From Agrobacterium cucumeris (GTDB lineage: Bacteria > Pseudomonadota > Alphaproteobacteria > Rhizobiales > Rhizobiaceae), in assembly GCF_030036535.1 (NCBI RefSeq), contig NZ_CP080387.1, positions 992,001 through 1,056,000 of the forward strand: DNA of 64,000 nt. The letters are read 5' to 3'. Of this stretch, positions 36,796 through 42,774 are shown piece after piece; positions within the stretch are counted from its first letter, which is position 1; the number at the start of each line of letters is the position of its first letter. The translations under genes and the position numbers were made by a program. A model generated the notes under the pieces. The model did not search any database, was not told where the DNA came from, and worked only from the letters and a program-made list of their open reading frames with translations.

Positions 36796-38103
36796 ATGGC
36801 AAAAGCCGATGCTGACAAGGGTGCGGCTCCTTCCGCCCGGGAAAAGACCGCCCGGCCTTTTTCCGCTTTTGAACGCATGGTGGCCTGGCGCTATCTGCGG
36901 TCGCGGCGCAAGGAAGCGTTCATTTCCGTCATCGCCGGTTTTTCTTTTGTCGGCATCATGCTGGGCGTTGCGACGCTCATCATCGTCATGGCGGTCATGA
37001 ATGGTTTCCGCACCGAGCTGATTTCGCGCATTCTCGGCATTAACGGCCATATGATCGTCCAGCCGATCGACCAGCCCTTCAATAATTATGATGAGCTGGC
37101 GAAGAAGTTTTCAGCCGTGCCTGGTGTCACCATGGCCCTGCCGCTGGTGGAAGGCCAGACATTGGCCTCCGGCCGAGGCGGCGCAGGCTCCGGCGCGCTG
37201 GTGCGTGGCGTGCGCCAGGAGGATATCGACAAGATCAAGGAAGTTGCCAGCAACATCAAGACCGGCGATCTCGTCGGCTTCATGGCGGGCGACGGTGTTC
37301 TGGTCGGCTCGCGGCTTGCCGCACAGCTTGGCGTAACGGCGGGTGATGATATCACCCTCATTTCGCCGGAAGGCGACGTGACGCCGATGGGCGTCAATCC
37401 GCGCGTCAAATCCTACAAGATATCAGGCGTCTTCGAGATCGGCATGTCGGAATATGACGCGTCGATGATCTATATGCCGCTGTCTGAAGCCCAGCTTTAT
37501 TTCAATGCCGACGGCATCGTGCAATCCATCGAGCTTTATGTCAGCCGCCCCGATGACGTTGACGGCATCCGGCCGCTAGTGGAGCAGGCCGCCGAACGGC
37601 AGATCTATATCACCGACTGGCGACAGCGGAACCAGACCTTCTTTTCCGCCCTGCAGGTGGAAAGAAACGTGATGTTCATGATCCTCACCCTCATCGTTCT
37701 GGTGGCGGCGCTGAACATCATTTCCGGCCTCATCATGCTGGTGAAGGACAAGGGCAGCGATATCGCCATTCTGCGCACCATGGGTGCCAGTTCCGGCGCG
37801 GTCATGCGGATATTCTTCATGACCGGAGCGGCCATTGGCACGGTCGGCACCTTTGCCGGCGTGGCGCTCGGCGTCATCGTCTGCCTCAACGTGGAATCCA
37901 TCCGGCAATTCTTCTCCTGGATATCCGGCACGGTGCTGTTTGACCCGCAGCTTTATTTCCTCAGCCAGCTGCCGGCCGAAATGGATATCAGCGAGACCAT
38001 CACCGTCGTCATCATGGCGCTGACGCTTTCTTTCCTGGCAACGATCTTTCCAGCATGGCGGGCCTCCAAGCTCGATCCGGTGCAGGCCCTGCGTTACGAA
38101 TAA
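36796..38103 (+). CDS. lolC: Lipoprotein-releasing ABC transporter permease LolC/LolE
   Basis: A 435-residue inner membrane permease with the MacB/FtsX topology: one helix near residues 45-70, a ~210-residue periplasmic domain, then three helices at ~295-320, ~340-370 and ~395-420. It ends with FPAWRASKLDPVQALRYE, the family C-terminal signature. With LolD (15 bp downstream) it releases outer-membrane lipoproteins to LolA. Only one permease gene is present, as is usual where LolF-like single permeases form homodimers. Confidence 0.94.
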   Translation: MAKADADKGAAPSAREKTARPFSAFERMVAWRYLRSRRKEAFISVIAGFSFVGIMLGVATLIIVMAVMNGFRTELISRILGINGHMIVQPIDQPFNNYDELAKKFSAVPGVTMALPLVEGQTLASGRGGAGSGALVRGVRQEDIDKIKEVASNIKTGDLVGFMAGDGVLVGSRLAAQLGVTAGDDITLISPEGDVTPMGVNPRVKSYKISGVFEIGMSEYDASMIYMPLSEAQLYFNADGIVQSIELYVSRPDDVDGIRPLVEQAAERQIYITDWRQRNQTFFSALQVERNVMFMILTLIVLVAALNIISGLIMLVKDKGSDIAILRTMGASSGAVMRIFFMTGAAIGTVGTFAGVALGVIVCLNVESIRQFFSWISGTVLFDPQLYFLSQLPAEMDISETITVVIMALTLSFLATIFPAWRASKLDPVQALRYE

Positions 38104-38118
38104 GGACCGCTTCGCAAT

Positions 38119-38802
38119 ATGGCAAAAAAAACAGTGCTGCGGCTTACCGGTGTGGAACGGACCTATGGTCAGGGTGAAACGTCGCTTTCCATTCTGCGCA
38201 AGGCCGATCTTGAATTGAGGAGCGGTGAGATGGTGGCGCTCGTCGCCCCCTCCGGTACCGGGAAATCCACACTGCTGCATCTGGCGGGCCTTCTGGAGCA
38301 CCCTGACGCGGGTGAGGTTTTCATCAATGGCGCGCCATGCAACGGTCTGCCGGATGAAACCCGCACCGCGATCCGTCGCAGCGACATCGGTTTCGTCTAT
38401 CAGTTCCATCACCTCCTGCCGGAGTTTTCGGCGGTGGAAAATGTGATGATGCCGCAGCTTATCGCCGGTCTCACACAGGCCGAAGCGCGCAAGCGTGCCA
38501 GCGCCCTGCTGGACTACATGCGCGTCGGCCATCGCGGCGAACATCGCCCGGCCGAACTTTCCGGTGGCGAGCAGCAGCGTGTGGCGATTGCGCGCGCGGT
38601 TGCCAATGCGCCGCTTCTGCTGCTTGCGGATGAGCCGACCGGCAACCTCGATCCCGAAACCGCGCATTATGTTTTCGATGCGCTGGAGGCCTTAGTGCGC
38701 CAGTCCGGCCTTGCGGCGATGATCGCCACCCATAACCACGACCTCGCTGCCCGCATGGACCGACGTGTCACGCTTGCAGACGGCAAGATCGTCGATTTCT
38801 GA
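38119..38802 (+). CDS. lolD: Lipoprotein-releasing ABC transporter ATP-binding protein
   Basis: A 227-residue ABC ATPase. Walker A is APSGTGKST (43-51), the signature is [15 protein letters not shown], and Walker B is [16 protein letters not shown]. It pairs with the upstream permease. A strong terminator lies 100 bp downstream. Confidence 0.95.
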
Positions 38803-38902
38803 TCATCACGGTCTGAGCCGGCGATATCGTCGACGCGGCTGAGTCGCTTCGCTGCGGCTCCTCCATGGGCCGGCTCCTTCTTCCACAATTGAATTTTTTC
38901 CG

Positions 38903-38934
38903 AACCCGGAGGTGTTTTAACCTCCGGGTTTTTT
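38903..38934 (+). terminator. Intrinsic terminator after lolD
   Basis: Perfect 10-bp stem AACCCGGAGG / CCTCCGGGTT (38903-38912, 38921-38930) with an 8-nt loop and a run of six T residues. It isolates the downstream SOS-box/peptide/dnaE unit from lolCD. Confidence 0.88.
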
Positions 38935-39022
38935 CGCTTTGGAGTCAGGGGCTTGCCGATCATGGGAACGGAACCGCAGCCGATTCTGCCGCGTTAGAAA
39001 GAGGAATATCAGTAAAACCCTG

Positions 39023-39057
39023 TTGACAATCGAACAAAATGAGAACAAAGTTGGAAC
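39023..39057 (+). promoter_or_regulatory. Promoter with tandem LexA (SOS) boxes
   Basis: TTGACA at 39023-39028 is a perfect -35 element. Three GAAC words follow at 39032, 39043 and 39054, each exactly 11 bp apart, giving two overlapping GAAC-N7-GAAC boxes, the direct-repeat operator of alphaproteobacterial LexA (GTTC-N7-GTTC on the other strand). The array lies where -10 and start-site contacts would be, ideal for repression. The -10 element itself is not obvious. Genes downstream: a 28-residue membrane peptide and dnaE. Confidence 0.75.
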
Positions 39058-39078
39058 ATAACGAGTAAGGAGAGACCA

Positions 39079-39165
39079 ATGACTGATTTCATCCGTGACG
39101 TTGCCGCTTTCGCTTCCATCGCTGTCTTTGTTGCCAGCTTTTCGGTAATCCTCACTGCCCTGTGA
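39079..39165 (+). CDS. 28-residue single-pass membrane peptide under SOS-type control
   Basis: A tiny frame preceded by TAAGGAGAG, one of the best ribosome binding sites in the window, 21 bp after the last LexA half-site. It begins MTDFIRDVA and continues as one hydrophobic helix of about 20 residues (rich in Ala, Phe, Ser, Val and Ile) to the C terminus. Size, topology and apparent LexA control recall Caulobacter SidA (29 residues, SOS-induced inhibitor of division at the inner membrane); sequence homology is not claimed. dnaE begins 105 bp later with no terminator between. Confidence 0.7.
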   Translation: MTDFIRDVAAFASIAVFVASFSVILTAL

Positions 39166-39270
39166 AGGAAACACCGGCGCAGAAGCCTGTATGGAGGCCG
39201 CAAGCCTGTGGACTTTAAGCGCCGGAAATCGGAAAATCGCCCCCTCGATTCAGAATGACAGGACGACGAT

Positions 39271-42200
39271 ATGGGCGATACGGTTGTGCGTGGAGAAAAC
39301 TCTGACGAAACGCTGAAAACGCCTGGTTTCGTCCATTTGCGGGTTCATTCCGCTTACTCCCTGCTTGAGGGGGCATTACCCCTCAAGAAAATCATGTCCA
39401 AGGCCGTTGCAGATGGCCAGCCGGCAATTGCCATCACCGACACCAACAATCTTTTCGTTGCGCTGGAGTTTTCCGAAAAAGCGCGTGACGAAGGTCTGCA
39501 GCCGATCATCGGTTGCCAGGTGTCGATCGACATGCAGGATGCGGCGGAGGATCGCCGCAATCACAACAGCCACCTCGCCAAGCTCCCAGCCATCGTGCTT
39601 CTGGCTGCCAATGCCGAAGGTTACGAGCGGCTGGTGGACCTGATCAGCCGCGCCTATCTGGAAGGCGAGGGCAGTGGCGGACATTCCGTGCATGTTACCC
39701 GCGCTTGGCTGGAAGAGGCCTCCAATGCCGGGCTCATCGCATTGACGGGCGCCACTGGCGGTCCTGTCGATATGGCGTTGAAGGAAGGCCATGCCGCGCA
39801 GGCCAAAGAGCGGCTGCTGACGCTGAAGTCGCTCTTTGGTGACAGGCTCTATATCGAATTGCAGCGCCAGTCCGGTTATGACCGCTCCCACGAGCGACGC
39901 ATGATCGGCCTTGCCTATGAACATGATATCCCGCTGGTTGCCACCAATGAGGCGTTTTTCCCTTCCAAGGCAGACTATGAGGCGCATGACGCCCTGATGG
40001 CGGTGGCGCATAATGCCATCGTTTCCGATGACAGCCGCTTCCGCCTGACACCCGATCATTATCTGAAAAGCCGGCAGGAGATGACGGCGCTGTTTGCCGA
40101 CCTTCCCGAGGCGCTGGAAAATACCGTCGAGATTGCGCTGCGCTGCTCCTATGTGCTGAAAAAACGCGGGCCCATCCTGCCACGTTTCACCGGCGCCAGC
40201 GAAGATCCGGAAGCGGCCGAACATGCCGAAACAGAGGAGCTTCGCCGCCAGGCGGTGGAGGGGCTCGACCAGCGGCTTGCGGCGCTCGGCATGTCGCCCG
40301 GCTATACGGAGCAGGATTATCGCGAGAGACTGGATTTCGAACTCGGCGTCATCTCGCGCATGAAATTCCCCGGTTACTTCCTGATCGTTGCCGACTTCAT
40401 CAAATGGGCCAAGCAGCAGGACATCCCTGTTGGTCCCGGCCGCGGTTCGGGCGCCGGCTCGCTTGTGGCTTATGCACTGACCATCACCGATGTCGATCCG
40501 TTGCGCTTCTCGTTGCTGTTCGAGCGCTTCCTCAATCCCGAGCGTGTCTCGATGCCGGACTTCGACATCGACTTCTGCCAGGATCGCCGCGAAGAGGTGA
40601 TCCGTTATGTGCAGCGCAAATATGGCCGCGAGCAGGTGGCGCAGATCATCACCTTCGGTTCGCTGCAGGCGCGTGCGGCATTGCGCGATGTTGGCCGCGT
40701 GCTGGAAATGCCCTATGGGCAGGTGGACAAGATCTGCAAGCTGGTACCCAATAACCCGGCCAACCCGACGCCTTTGTCAAAGGCCATCGAGGAAGAGCCG
40801 CGCCTGCAGGAAGAGGCGGACAAGGAACCCGTCGTCGCCCGCCTCCTGGATATCGCCCAAAAGATCGAAGGGCTTTACCGCCACGCCTCCACCCACGCCG
40901 CCGGTATCGTCATCGGTGACCGGCCGCTGTCGAAGCTGGTGCCGATGTATCGCGATCCGCGCTCCGACATGCCGGTCACCCAGTTCAACATGAAATGGGT
41001 GGAAAGCGCCGGTCTCGTCAAATTCGACTTCCTCGGCCTGAAGACGCTGACGGTATTGAAGGTCGCCGTGGATTTTGTCGCCAAGCGCGGCATCAAGGTC
41101 GATCTTGCCGCCATTCCGCTGGACGACACGAAAACCTATGAGATGTTGTCGCGTGGCGAGACCATCGGCGTGTTCCAGGTGGAAAGTGCGGGCATGCGCA
41201 AGGCGCTGATCGGCATGCGCCCGGACTGCATCGAGGATATCATCGCGCTGGTGGCGCTTTATCGTCCGGGCCCGATGGAAAACATCCCGGTCTATAATGC
41301 CCGCAAACATGGCGAGGAGGAGCTGGAGTCCATCCACCCCACCATCGACCATCTGCTCAAGGAAACGCAGGGCGTTATCGTCTATCAGGAACAGGTGATG
41401 CAGATCGCCCAGGTCCTGTCAGGTTATTCGCTCGGCGAAGCCGATCTTCTGCGCCGTGCCATGGGCAAGAAGATCAAGGAGGAGATGGACAAGCAGCGCG
41501 AGCGTTTCGTCGATGGCGCCATCAAGAACGGCGTGTCGAAACCGCAGGCCGACACCATCTTCGACCTTCTGGCGAAGTTCGCCAATTACGGCTTCAACAA
41601 GAGCCATGCCGCCGCTTACGCCATCGTTTCTTACCAGACCGCCTATATGAAGGCGCATTATCCGGTGGAGTTCCTGGCGGCCTCCATGACGCTCGATATG
41701 GCGAACACGGAAAAGCTCAACGATTTCCGGCAGGATGCCGGCCGCCTCGGCATCGAGGTCGTAGCGCCTTCGGTGCAGACGTCTTTCCGCCAGTTCGAGA
41801 CCGGTGAAAACCGCATCTATTATTCGCTGGCCGCCATCAAGGGCGTCGGCGAGGGCGCGGTCGAACATATCGTCGAAGTGCGCGGCGACAAGCCGTTCAC
41901 GAGCCTTGAGGATTTCTGCCTGCGTATCGATCCCAAACAGATCAACCGGCGTGTGCTGGAAAGCCTCATCAATGCCGGCGGCTTCGACTGTTTCGGCCGC
42001 GATCGCGCCGAACTGATTGGCGGGCTCGACCGTATCATCGGTTATGCGCAGATGGCGCAGAACAACCGCACCGTCGGCCAGTCGGACATGTTCGGTTCCG
42101 GTGGTGGTAACGGCCCGGAAAAGCTGGTGCTGCCGGCCTTCCAGCCCTGGCTTGCCTCGGAAAAGCTGTTGCGGGAATATCAGGTGCTCGGTTTTTACCT

Positions 42201-42774
42201 CACCGCCCATCCGCTCGACACCTATCGCCCCGTGCTGGAAAAGTTGCGTGTGCAGAATATCGCTGATTTTTCCGCCGCCGTGAAACAGGGCGCCACCGCC
42301 GGGCGTCTGGCCGGCACCGTCACCGGCAAGCAGGAGCGCAAGACCCGCACCGGCAACAAGATGGGCATCGTCACCTTCTCGGATGCATCGGGGCAATATG
42401 AGGCGGTGCTGTTTTCCGAAGGGCTTGCTCAGTTTCGTGAGCTGCTGGAGGTCGGCAAATCGCTTGTCATCACCGTGCAGGCGGAAGAACGCCCGGAAGG
42501 CATCGGTCTGCGCATCCAGACGGCTCAGTCGCTGGAGGAGAAGTCCGTGCAGATGCAGAAGGCGCTGCGCGTTTATGTGCGCGATTCCGGCCCGTTGAAA
42601 ACAGTCGCCCGCCACCTCAATACCAAGGGTGACGGGTCTGTCTATTTCATCGTCATCAAGGATGAGGGCAGCCGCGAAATCGAAGTGGAACTGACGGAGA
42701 AATACCGCATTTCACCTGAGATCGCCGCAGCACTTCGCGCCGCCCCCGGCGTCGTTGATGTGGAACTGGTTTAA
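39271..42774 (+). CDS. dnaE: DNA polymerase III subunit alpha
   Basis: A 1167-residue replicative polymerase (DnaE1 type). An N-terminal PHP domain begins with FVHLRVHSAYSLLEGA. The catalytic aspartates are in MPDFDIDF (Asp432, Asp434), with the third in the downstream palm region. The helix-hairpin-helix region (SLAAIKGVGEGAVEHI) and an OB-fold near residues 1000-1080 are present. Length and layout fit the housekeeping enzyme rather than the SOS-inducible DnaE2, although it may share the SOS-box promoter at 39023-39057. It is convergent with the L,D-transpeptidase gene. Confidence 0.97.
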   Translation: MGDTVVRGENSDETLKTPGFVHLRVHSAYSLLEGALPLKKIMSKAVADGQPAIAITDTNNLFVALEFSEKARDEGLQPIIGCQVSIDMQDAAEDRRNHNSHLAKLPAIVLLAANAEGYERLVDLISRAYLEGEGSGGHSVHVTRAWLEEASNAGLIALTGATGGPVDMALKEGHAAQAKERLLTLKSLFGDRLYIELQRQSGYDRSHERRMIGLAYEHDIPLVATNEAFFPSKADYEAHDALMAVAHNAIVSDDSRFRLTPDHYLKSRQEMTALFADLPEALENTVEIALRCSYVLKKRGPILPRFTGASEDPEAAEHAETEELRRQAVEGLDQRLAALGMSPGYTEQDYRERLDFELGVISRMKFPGYFLIVADFIKWAKQQDIPVGPGRGSGAGSLVAYALTITDVDPLRFSLLFERFLNPERVSMPDFDIDFCQDRREEVIRYVQRKYGREQVAQIITFGSLQARAALRDVGRVLEMPYGQVDKICKLVPNNPANPTPLSKAIEEEPRLQEEADKEPVVARLLDIAQKIEGLYRHASTHAAGIVIGDRPLSKLVPMYRDPRSDMPVTQFNMKWVESAGLVKFDFLGLKTLTVLKVAVDFVAKRGIKVDLAAIPLDDTKTYEMLSRGETIGVFQVESAGMRKALIGMRPDCIEDIIALVALYRPGPMENIPVYNARKHGEEELESIHPTIDHLLKETQGVIVYQEQVMQIAQVLSGYSLGEADLLRRAMGKKIKEEMDKQRERFVDGAIKNGVSKPQADTIFDLLAKFANYGFNKSHAAAYAIVSYQTAYMKAHYPVEFLAASMTLDMANTEKLNDFRQDAGRLGIEVVAPSVQTSFRQFETGENRIYYSLAAIKGVGEGAVEHIVEVRGDKPFTSLEDFCLRIDPKQINRRVLESLINAGGFDCFGRDRAELIGGLDRIIGYAQMAQNNRTVGQSDMFGSGGGNGPEKLVLPAFQPWLASEKLLREYQVLGFYLTAHPLDTYRPVLEKLRVQNIADFSAAVKQGATAGRLAGTVTGKQERKTRTGNKMGIVTFSDASGQYEAVLFSEGLAQFRELLEVGKSLVITVQAEERPEGIGLRIQTAQSLEEKSVQMQKALRVYVRDSGPLKTVARHLNTKGDGSVYFIVIKDEGSREIEVELTEKYRISPEIAAALRAAPGVVDVELV

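Follow-up and report, generated by a model that had tools for sequence, protein, structure and literature searches.

The question raised by this locus is what kind of product stands behind the SOS operator that lies close to dnaE in Agrobacterium cucumeris. The window, which is the whole 64-kb stretch of DNA that was analysed, contains a frame of 28 codons between this operator and the polymerase gene. In a preliminary description two alternatives were proposed for it, an SOS-controlled functional analogue of the Caulobacter division inhibitor SidA, or an anchor connecting the replicative polymerase with the membrane. SidA is described in the available part of its literature as an inner-membrane peptide of 29 aa, which is induced in the SOS response and acts on FtsW and division (PMC4211646).

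The ORF reaches on the forward strand from the ATG at 39079 to the TGA at 39165 and encodes MTDFIRDVAAFASIAVFVASFSVILTAL, 28 aa. All neighbouring features lie on the same strand. The left neighbours are a lolC/E lipoprotein-releasing ABC permease gene (36796–38103; NCBIfam TIGR02212, 499 bits, over the cut-off) and a lolD-like ABC ATPase gene (38119–38802; best NCBIfam match TIGR02211, 251 bits, below the 308-bit cut-off), and the right neighbour is dnaE, encoding the DNA polymerase III alpha subunit (39271–42774; NCBIfam NF004226, 1515 bits). A hairpin of 12 pairs followed by a T-rich tail, which was detected by a consensus scan only, is located after lolD at 38902–38931; this terminator-like element may separate the peptide unit from the lolD side. 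The sequence TTGACA at 39023–39028 is a putative -35 element and begins 9 nt before the first LexA box, start to start. The scan of 38800–39300 with sigma-70 consensus elements gave no -10 hexamer at the right distance and no full promoter match. The same region showed no terminator-like site in the interval from the peptide gene to dnaE, so a shared transcript may exist.

Both LexA (SOS) boxes, GAACAAAATGAGAAC at 39032–39046 and GAACAAAGTTGGAAC at 39043–39057, are exact matches to GAACN7GAAC and share one GAAC half-site, by which they overlap. The ribosome-binding site TAAGGAGAG at 39066–39074 is a strong Shine-Dalgarno match. The arrangement that had been described previously, a 28-codon frame with a good ribosome-binding site placed behind a double LexA-type operator and before the dnaE start at 39271, was thus found to be correct. 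The best 19-residue mean hydropathy of the peptide was 2.31, and its 28 residues with one predicted helix agree with the size and topology of SidA. The single hydrophobic helix of the preliminary description was retained, but not the polar start, as the nine N-terminal residues, MTDFIRDVA, are of mixed character, and D3, R6 and D7 are charged. In Pfam and NCBIfam, no families were matched at E up to 10 by two members of the peptide family.

As a chance control, ATG-initiated sORFs of 24–36 codons with a loose Shine-Dalgarno match were collected from the window. One of the resulting 61 frames combined a strong Shine-Dalgarno sequence with a mean hydropathy over 17 residues that exceeded 2.0. 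The chance expectation for an exact LexA box within 130 nt upstream, calculated from genome motif counts, was about 0.2%.

The conservation of the frame was determined in 121 Rhizobiaceae genomes. A tblastn search with the 28 residues gave matches in 62 of them at E up to 1. In the first loci retrieved, those of the own genome and 29 relatives, a frame of 25–28 codons was located before dnaE in 30 of 30 cases, and a LexA box with at least 7 of the 8 conserved letters was present in 29. A long dnaE match was obtained in 119 genomes, of which 4 had no usable front, and the remaining 115 fronts, up to 1 kb each, were read with candidates filtered on Shine-Dalgarno sequence, hydropathy and a short motif. 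The peptide was found in 68 of these fronts, with an exact LexA box within 90 nt in 62 and a start-to-start distance to dnaE ranging from 151 to 737 nt. The preliminary description had proposed an examination of length and substitution pattern across Rhizobiaceae, and its outcome supported the frame: 55 of the 68 linked copies are exactly 28 aa long, and the pN/pS, pooled over pairs differing by less than 20–35%, was 0.16–0.32 in frame compared with 0.90–1.20 in the +1 and 3.5–14.9 in the +2 frame. In the linked loci, variability was lowest at codon position 2 and highest at position 3. The 28-codon ORF before dnaE is a real, conserved protein gene.

The peptide was not detected in the other 47 fronts, and 46 of the corresponding genomes (all except G089) were searched with the broader profile A3. 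In 37 of the 46 a match was obtained elsewhere than within 1 kb before dnaE; the copy of G085 is located about 1.4 kb before dnaE. The gene is thereby present in 105 of 114 Rhizobiaceae genomes, in 68 within 1 kb before dnaE and in 37 elsewhere. The context was inspected for the best-scoring 29 of the 37 unlinked copies (L060 and L326–L354 without L337, which is dnaE-linked), and the other 8 (G007, G008, G018, G028, G040, G072, G085, G101) were identified by the profile match alone, with E of 1.7e-3 to 2.4e-6. Each of the 29 inspected copies has an exact LexA box within 130 nt, and lolC or lolD is located beside 20 of them. On the other side, an exact box is absent from all 47 peptide-less dnaE fronts. 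As the inspected unlinked copies keep the box and the peptide-less fronts are without it, box and peptide gene go together as a unit, and separation of the peptide gene from dnaE leaves dnaE without the LexA site.

Nine of the 46 genomes gave no peptide with A3. Seven of these are small genomes of 1.1–2.0 Mb (G005, G006, G044, G076, G091, G093, G111), and the other two are a 76%-complete assembly (G043) and G082. The LexA match is missing too in G006, G076 and G111 and is kept in the other four small genomes. A membrane protease candidate, presumably of the M50 type, follows the peptide in place of dnaE at L060, L332–L334, L346 and L350. A second profile match per genome was observed in G059, G008 and G025 and is possibly a paralogue of the peptide.

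The two boxes before the peptide gene are the only exact GAACN7GAAC sites on both strands of the window, and the whole genome contains 94 + 80 occurrences versus 52 + 46 of a reversed control. The motif was also found before lexA (L361; LexA assigned by TIGR00498) and between uvrA and ssb (L363), and GAACN7GAAC is therefore very likely a working SOS motif in this genome. Its reverse complement, GTTCN7GTTC, corresponds to the Caulobacter LexA consensus given in the accessible text of PMC12700426. Of the 62 dnaE-linked loci whose box is exact, 31, the window included, have TTGAC beginning 9 nt before the box, start to start. Two exact boxes are present in 16 of the 68 linked loci, and in 10 of these, again including the window, the spacing is 11 bp. 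A LexA-controlled promoter, as is characteristic of SidA, is thus predicted from the boxes in the window, the linked loci and the unlinked copies. At L026, L027, L060, L061, L066, L069 and L070, the peptide is preceded by an array of three LexA-type boxes spaced 11 bp apart, of which one or more are imperfect. Elsewhere in the own genome, exact LexA-type boxes are located 9–52 nt before the ORFs at L358, L368 and L370, which we take to resemble a winged-helix protein, a DNA methyltransferase and a radical-SAM protein, respectively; these ORFs are possible further SOS genes.

The place of sidA in Caulobacter was derived from published locus numbers. The sidA gene is CCNA_02004 (PMC10769358), dnaE and recN are CC1926 and CC1983 (PMC1839093), and recN is also CCNA_02062 (PMC12700426), as far as the available portions of these sources go. 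The two recN numbers give an offset of 79, which puts dnaE at about CCNA_02003–02005, beside sidA. CtrA as a search key in 192 genomes of the class revealed no evident Caulobacter (best match 87%), and the Caulobacter group was reached via a PopZ search, by which 80 genomes were found. The dnaE gene was searched for in 24 of them and its locus was obtained in 23; a C. vibrioides assembly (G746) gave no dnaE match. A one-helix peptide of 29–30 aa is located just before dnaE in all 23 loci, for example one of 29 aa in C. vibrioides OR37 (L211). The box counts refer to candidates filtered on the motif RE[ST]LA, with a shorter internal start beside the 29-aa one in two loci. The LexA box before the peptide was exact in 12 of the 23 loci, with the exact form missing from 11, and matched in at least 7 of 8 letters in all 23. 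Among 828 control windows taken within these dnaE genes, 7 of 8 letters were matched in 18 and all 8 in 1. A lolD match was detected upstream in 13 of the 23 loci and was not found in 10 within the stretch of about 1.45 kb. From length, operator, locus numbers and the 23 related genomes we infer, on tight grounds, that sidA of NA1000 is the ORF before dnaE. The window gene occupies this same place, flanked by dnaE on the right and by lolD on the left, the NA1000 placement being that derived from the locus numbers.

The sequence comparison pointed in the same direction. The hhalign probability of A3 against nine Caulobacter-group peptides was 73.6, with E of 2.9e-5 over 22 aligned columns; the shortness of the peptide limits this probability to about 74%. 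The A3 scores of eight Caulobacter-group peptides were reached by 0–2 of 2000 shuffles, in which the composition of head and helix was kept, and by none of 701 membrane-like windows. The narrower Rhizobiaceae profile A1 separated less well, and the Caulobacter-group scores were reached by 2–97 of 2000 shuffles and 0–12 of 701 windows. The sequence support for kinship with SidA is thus moderate, as expected for 28 residues. Both peptides have a LexA box in front, 28–29 residues, one membrane helix, the place before dnaE and the common core R-[DE]-x-x-A-[FL]-x-S-[IV]-x-x-F-V. In contrast, W19, which follows the core F-V and is invariant in the Caulobacter alignment A2, is absent from the window peptide, the C-terminal half of the rhizobial peptide is unlike that of SidA, and the rhizobial gene is parted from dnaE in part of Rhizobiaceae.

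Taken by place, operator, size, topology and sequence similarity, orthology of the rhizobial gene with sidA is well supported. Of the two alternatives in the preliminary description, the SOS-controlled SidA-like inhibitor was strengthened by these same features and the polymerase anchor lost ground. As the gene occupies the same genomic place as Caulobacter sidA, it appears to be more than a mere analogue.

An order-wide profile search gave matches in 42 of 249 genomes. Twenty-nine of these loci were read, and dnaE was located downstream in 22, of which 20 belong to other families. The peptides of the 22 dnaE-linked loci are 28–36 aa long (one is 41 aa), and an exact box is present in 18. Six further loci of the 29 represent a single Rhizobiaceae genus (g73), with no dnaE within the stretch examined, and L081 was rejected as noise. 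In the class-wide search for dnaE, fronts were read for the best-scoring 30 of 189 matching genomes, and an exact box was detected in 13 of the 29 fronts besides the own one. The ORFs behind these boxes are short and mostly one-helix, some clearly alike and some not. A class-wide search with A1 matched 13 of 385 genomes, and the 12 matches besides the own were dismissed as chance, having neither a dnaE match nor an exact box in their 3-kb loci.

In other families of the class, L083–L093, L097 and L103 combine exact LexA boxes with strongly differing short ORFs, some reaching 47 aa or more, before dnaE. The A3 scores of L083, L085, L087, L091, L097 and L103 were reached by 0–9 of 1000 shuffles and that of L088 by 13 of 1000. 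The other-order ORFs L090, L092 and L093, with scores reached by 70, 521 and 192 of 1000 shuffles, respectively, are not claimed as SidA. The ORFs of L083–L093, L097 and L103 may be fast-diverged relatives of SidA or independent inventions.

Starting from what was observed, namely a peptide gene conserved at the protein level, the sequence of its operator, the place it occupies and the resemblance of its product to the Caulobacter peptide, we consider it probable that the gene is the rhizobial orthologue of sidA and that its product is a LexA-repressed, SOS-induced inner-membrane peptide inhibiting FtsW-dependent septation. The gene would be kept off by LexA bound to the overlapping pair of boxes, which lies behind the -35-like element and ahead of the start codon. 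DNA damage would activate RecA and lead to the cleavage of LexA, whereupon the promoter and the strong ribosome-binding site would produce a burst of the 28-residue inner-membrane peptide. The single helix would then attach to the late divisome, with FtsW (together with FtsN) as the most likely target, and would keep the septal synthase FtsWI(N) inactive until repair is complete. The binding of SidA to FtsW/FtsN and the block of septation come from Caulobacter, according to the available text of PMC4211646, and AlphaFold 3 models, which are not of high confidence, place SidA on TM7 of FtsW, according to that of PMC13396833. By analogy with Caulobacter we infer for rhizobia that LexA controls the gene in vivo and that the peptide inserts into the membrane, binds FtsW and arrests division.

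Late-division action, as proposed here for the window peptide, is shared by the damage-induced small membrane proteins YneA, SosA, ChiZ and DidA in the accessible parts of the reports (PMC13396833, PMC4211646), and yneA, chiZ and sidA are unrelated genes according to the latter. Unlike the window peptide, YneA and ChiZ have LysM domains, and DidA is 71 aa long and SOS-independent. SulA of E. coli has the same checkpoint role but is an inhibitor of FtsZ. SulA (PF03846) was not detected in any of 41 genomes, the own and 40 relatives, with a positive E. coli control; the peptide is thus an obvious candidate for the division stop of the SOS response in these bacteria.

Other roles for the locus were considered together with the evidence above. 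An SOS-induced single-helix membrane peptide could instead depolarise the membrane or slow growth, in the manner of TisB or DinQ of E. coli, TisB being an example of a peptide with such an effect. The size class, the type of regulation and the hydrophobic helix all agree with this, and no interaction data for the peptide in rhizobia were found. However, the window gene shares place, operator and similarity with SidA, the target of which is the divisome, and a helix stripe of conserved residues, D7, A/S10, S13 and F17, is more in keeping with a protein partner than with a pore, giving weak support since its permutation p of 0.028 is partly forced by the motif filter on the members. Such another role therefore appears unlikely. 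That the frame arose by chance and has no function could be argued from its shortness, but its length and start, the ribosome-binding site, the selection in frame 0 and the presence throughout the family speak against it, as does the translated sORF in the dnaE1 5'-UTR of Sinorhizobium meliloti reported in the available text of PMC10117765, and the probability of a chance frame is practically negligible.

The remaining explanations make the peptide an accessory of the polymerase gene. It could be a leader peptide or uORF that controls dnaE translation or transcription, with the LexA boxes there for dnaE. The position of the S. meliloti sORF in the dnaE1 5'-UTR is in agreement with this, as uORF action is suggested for some such sORFs (PMC10117765), and dnaE is named as reported to be SOS-regulated in Caulobacter (PMC3323433), both in the accessible portions of the texts; the lack of a terminator-like site before dnaE, and hence a possibly shared transcript, fits as well. 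A leader would not explain why the peptide is away from dnaE in 37 genomes with the box kept in all inspected copies, why no peptide-less dnaE front has an exact box, why selection acts on the amino-acid sequence, or why the distance to dnaE varies so widely, and we regard it as very unlikely. The anchor or partner of the adjoining DNA polymerase, as suggested in the preliminary description, could draw on the adjacency in 68 of 115 Rhizobiaceae fronts. This adjacency is lost in the 37 further genomes, where the gene does not lie within 1 kb before dnaE and the best 29 copies keep the LexA box, and 20 of the 29 inspected copies are still beside lolC or lolD. The anchor is therefore disfavoured and deserves hardly any credence.

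The SidA-type reading of the gene can be related to an earlier observation in S. meliloti. Ribo-seq revealed a translated sORF in the dnaE1 5'-UTR (sORF25), which is listed among sORFs missing from two annotations in the available text of PMC10117765. It has the same place as the window gene and is translated, and is most likely the same gene. Its absence from the two annotations fits the preliminary suggestion that such a frame is too short for gene calling and has been overlooked. The terms LexA, SOS and SidA do not occur in the main text of PMC10117765. In the literature covered, which was incomplete, so that an earlier publication is possible, no statement of a SidA homologue in rhizobia was found; likewise, this incomplete coverage gave no account of how rhizobia stop dividing after DNA damage. 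No rhizobial experiment on the peptide was found in the literature covered.

The finding provides a function-level hypothesis for the translated but unexplained S. meliloti sORF, and the peptide offers a reason for the presence of a LexA site close to the gene of a housekeeping polymerase. The 28-residue helix exists in many natural variants, which could be used to map the docking of such a micropeptide on FtsW. We judge it an evenly balanced proposition that much of Alphaproteobacteria has, as its ancestral SOS checkpoint effector, a SidA-type micropeptide encoded between lolCD and dnaE and hidden by its size, that the LexA site assigned to 'dnaE' in reported alphaproteobacterial LexA regulons is really its own and that rhizobia possess a ready division stop. 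Rhizobia include bacteria which become filamentous, polyploid bacteroids. With a named, conserved and deletable candidate, the division stop of rhizobia after DNA damage would become directly testable.
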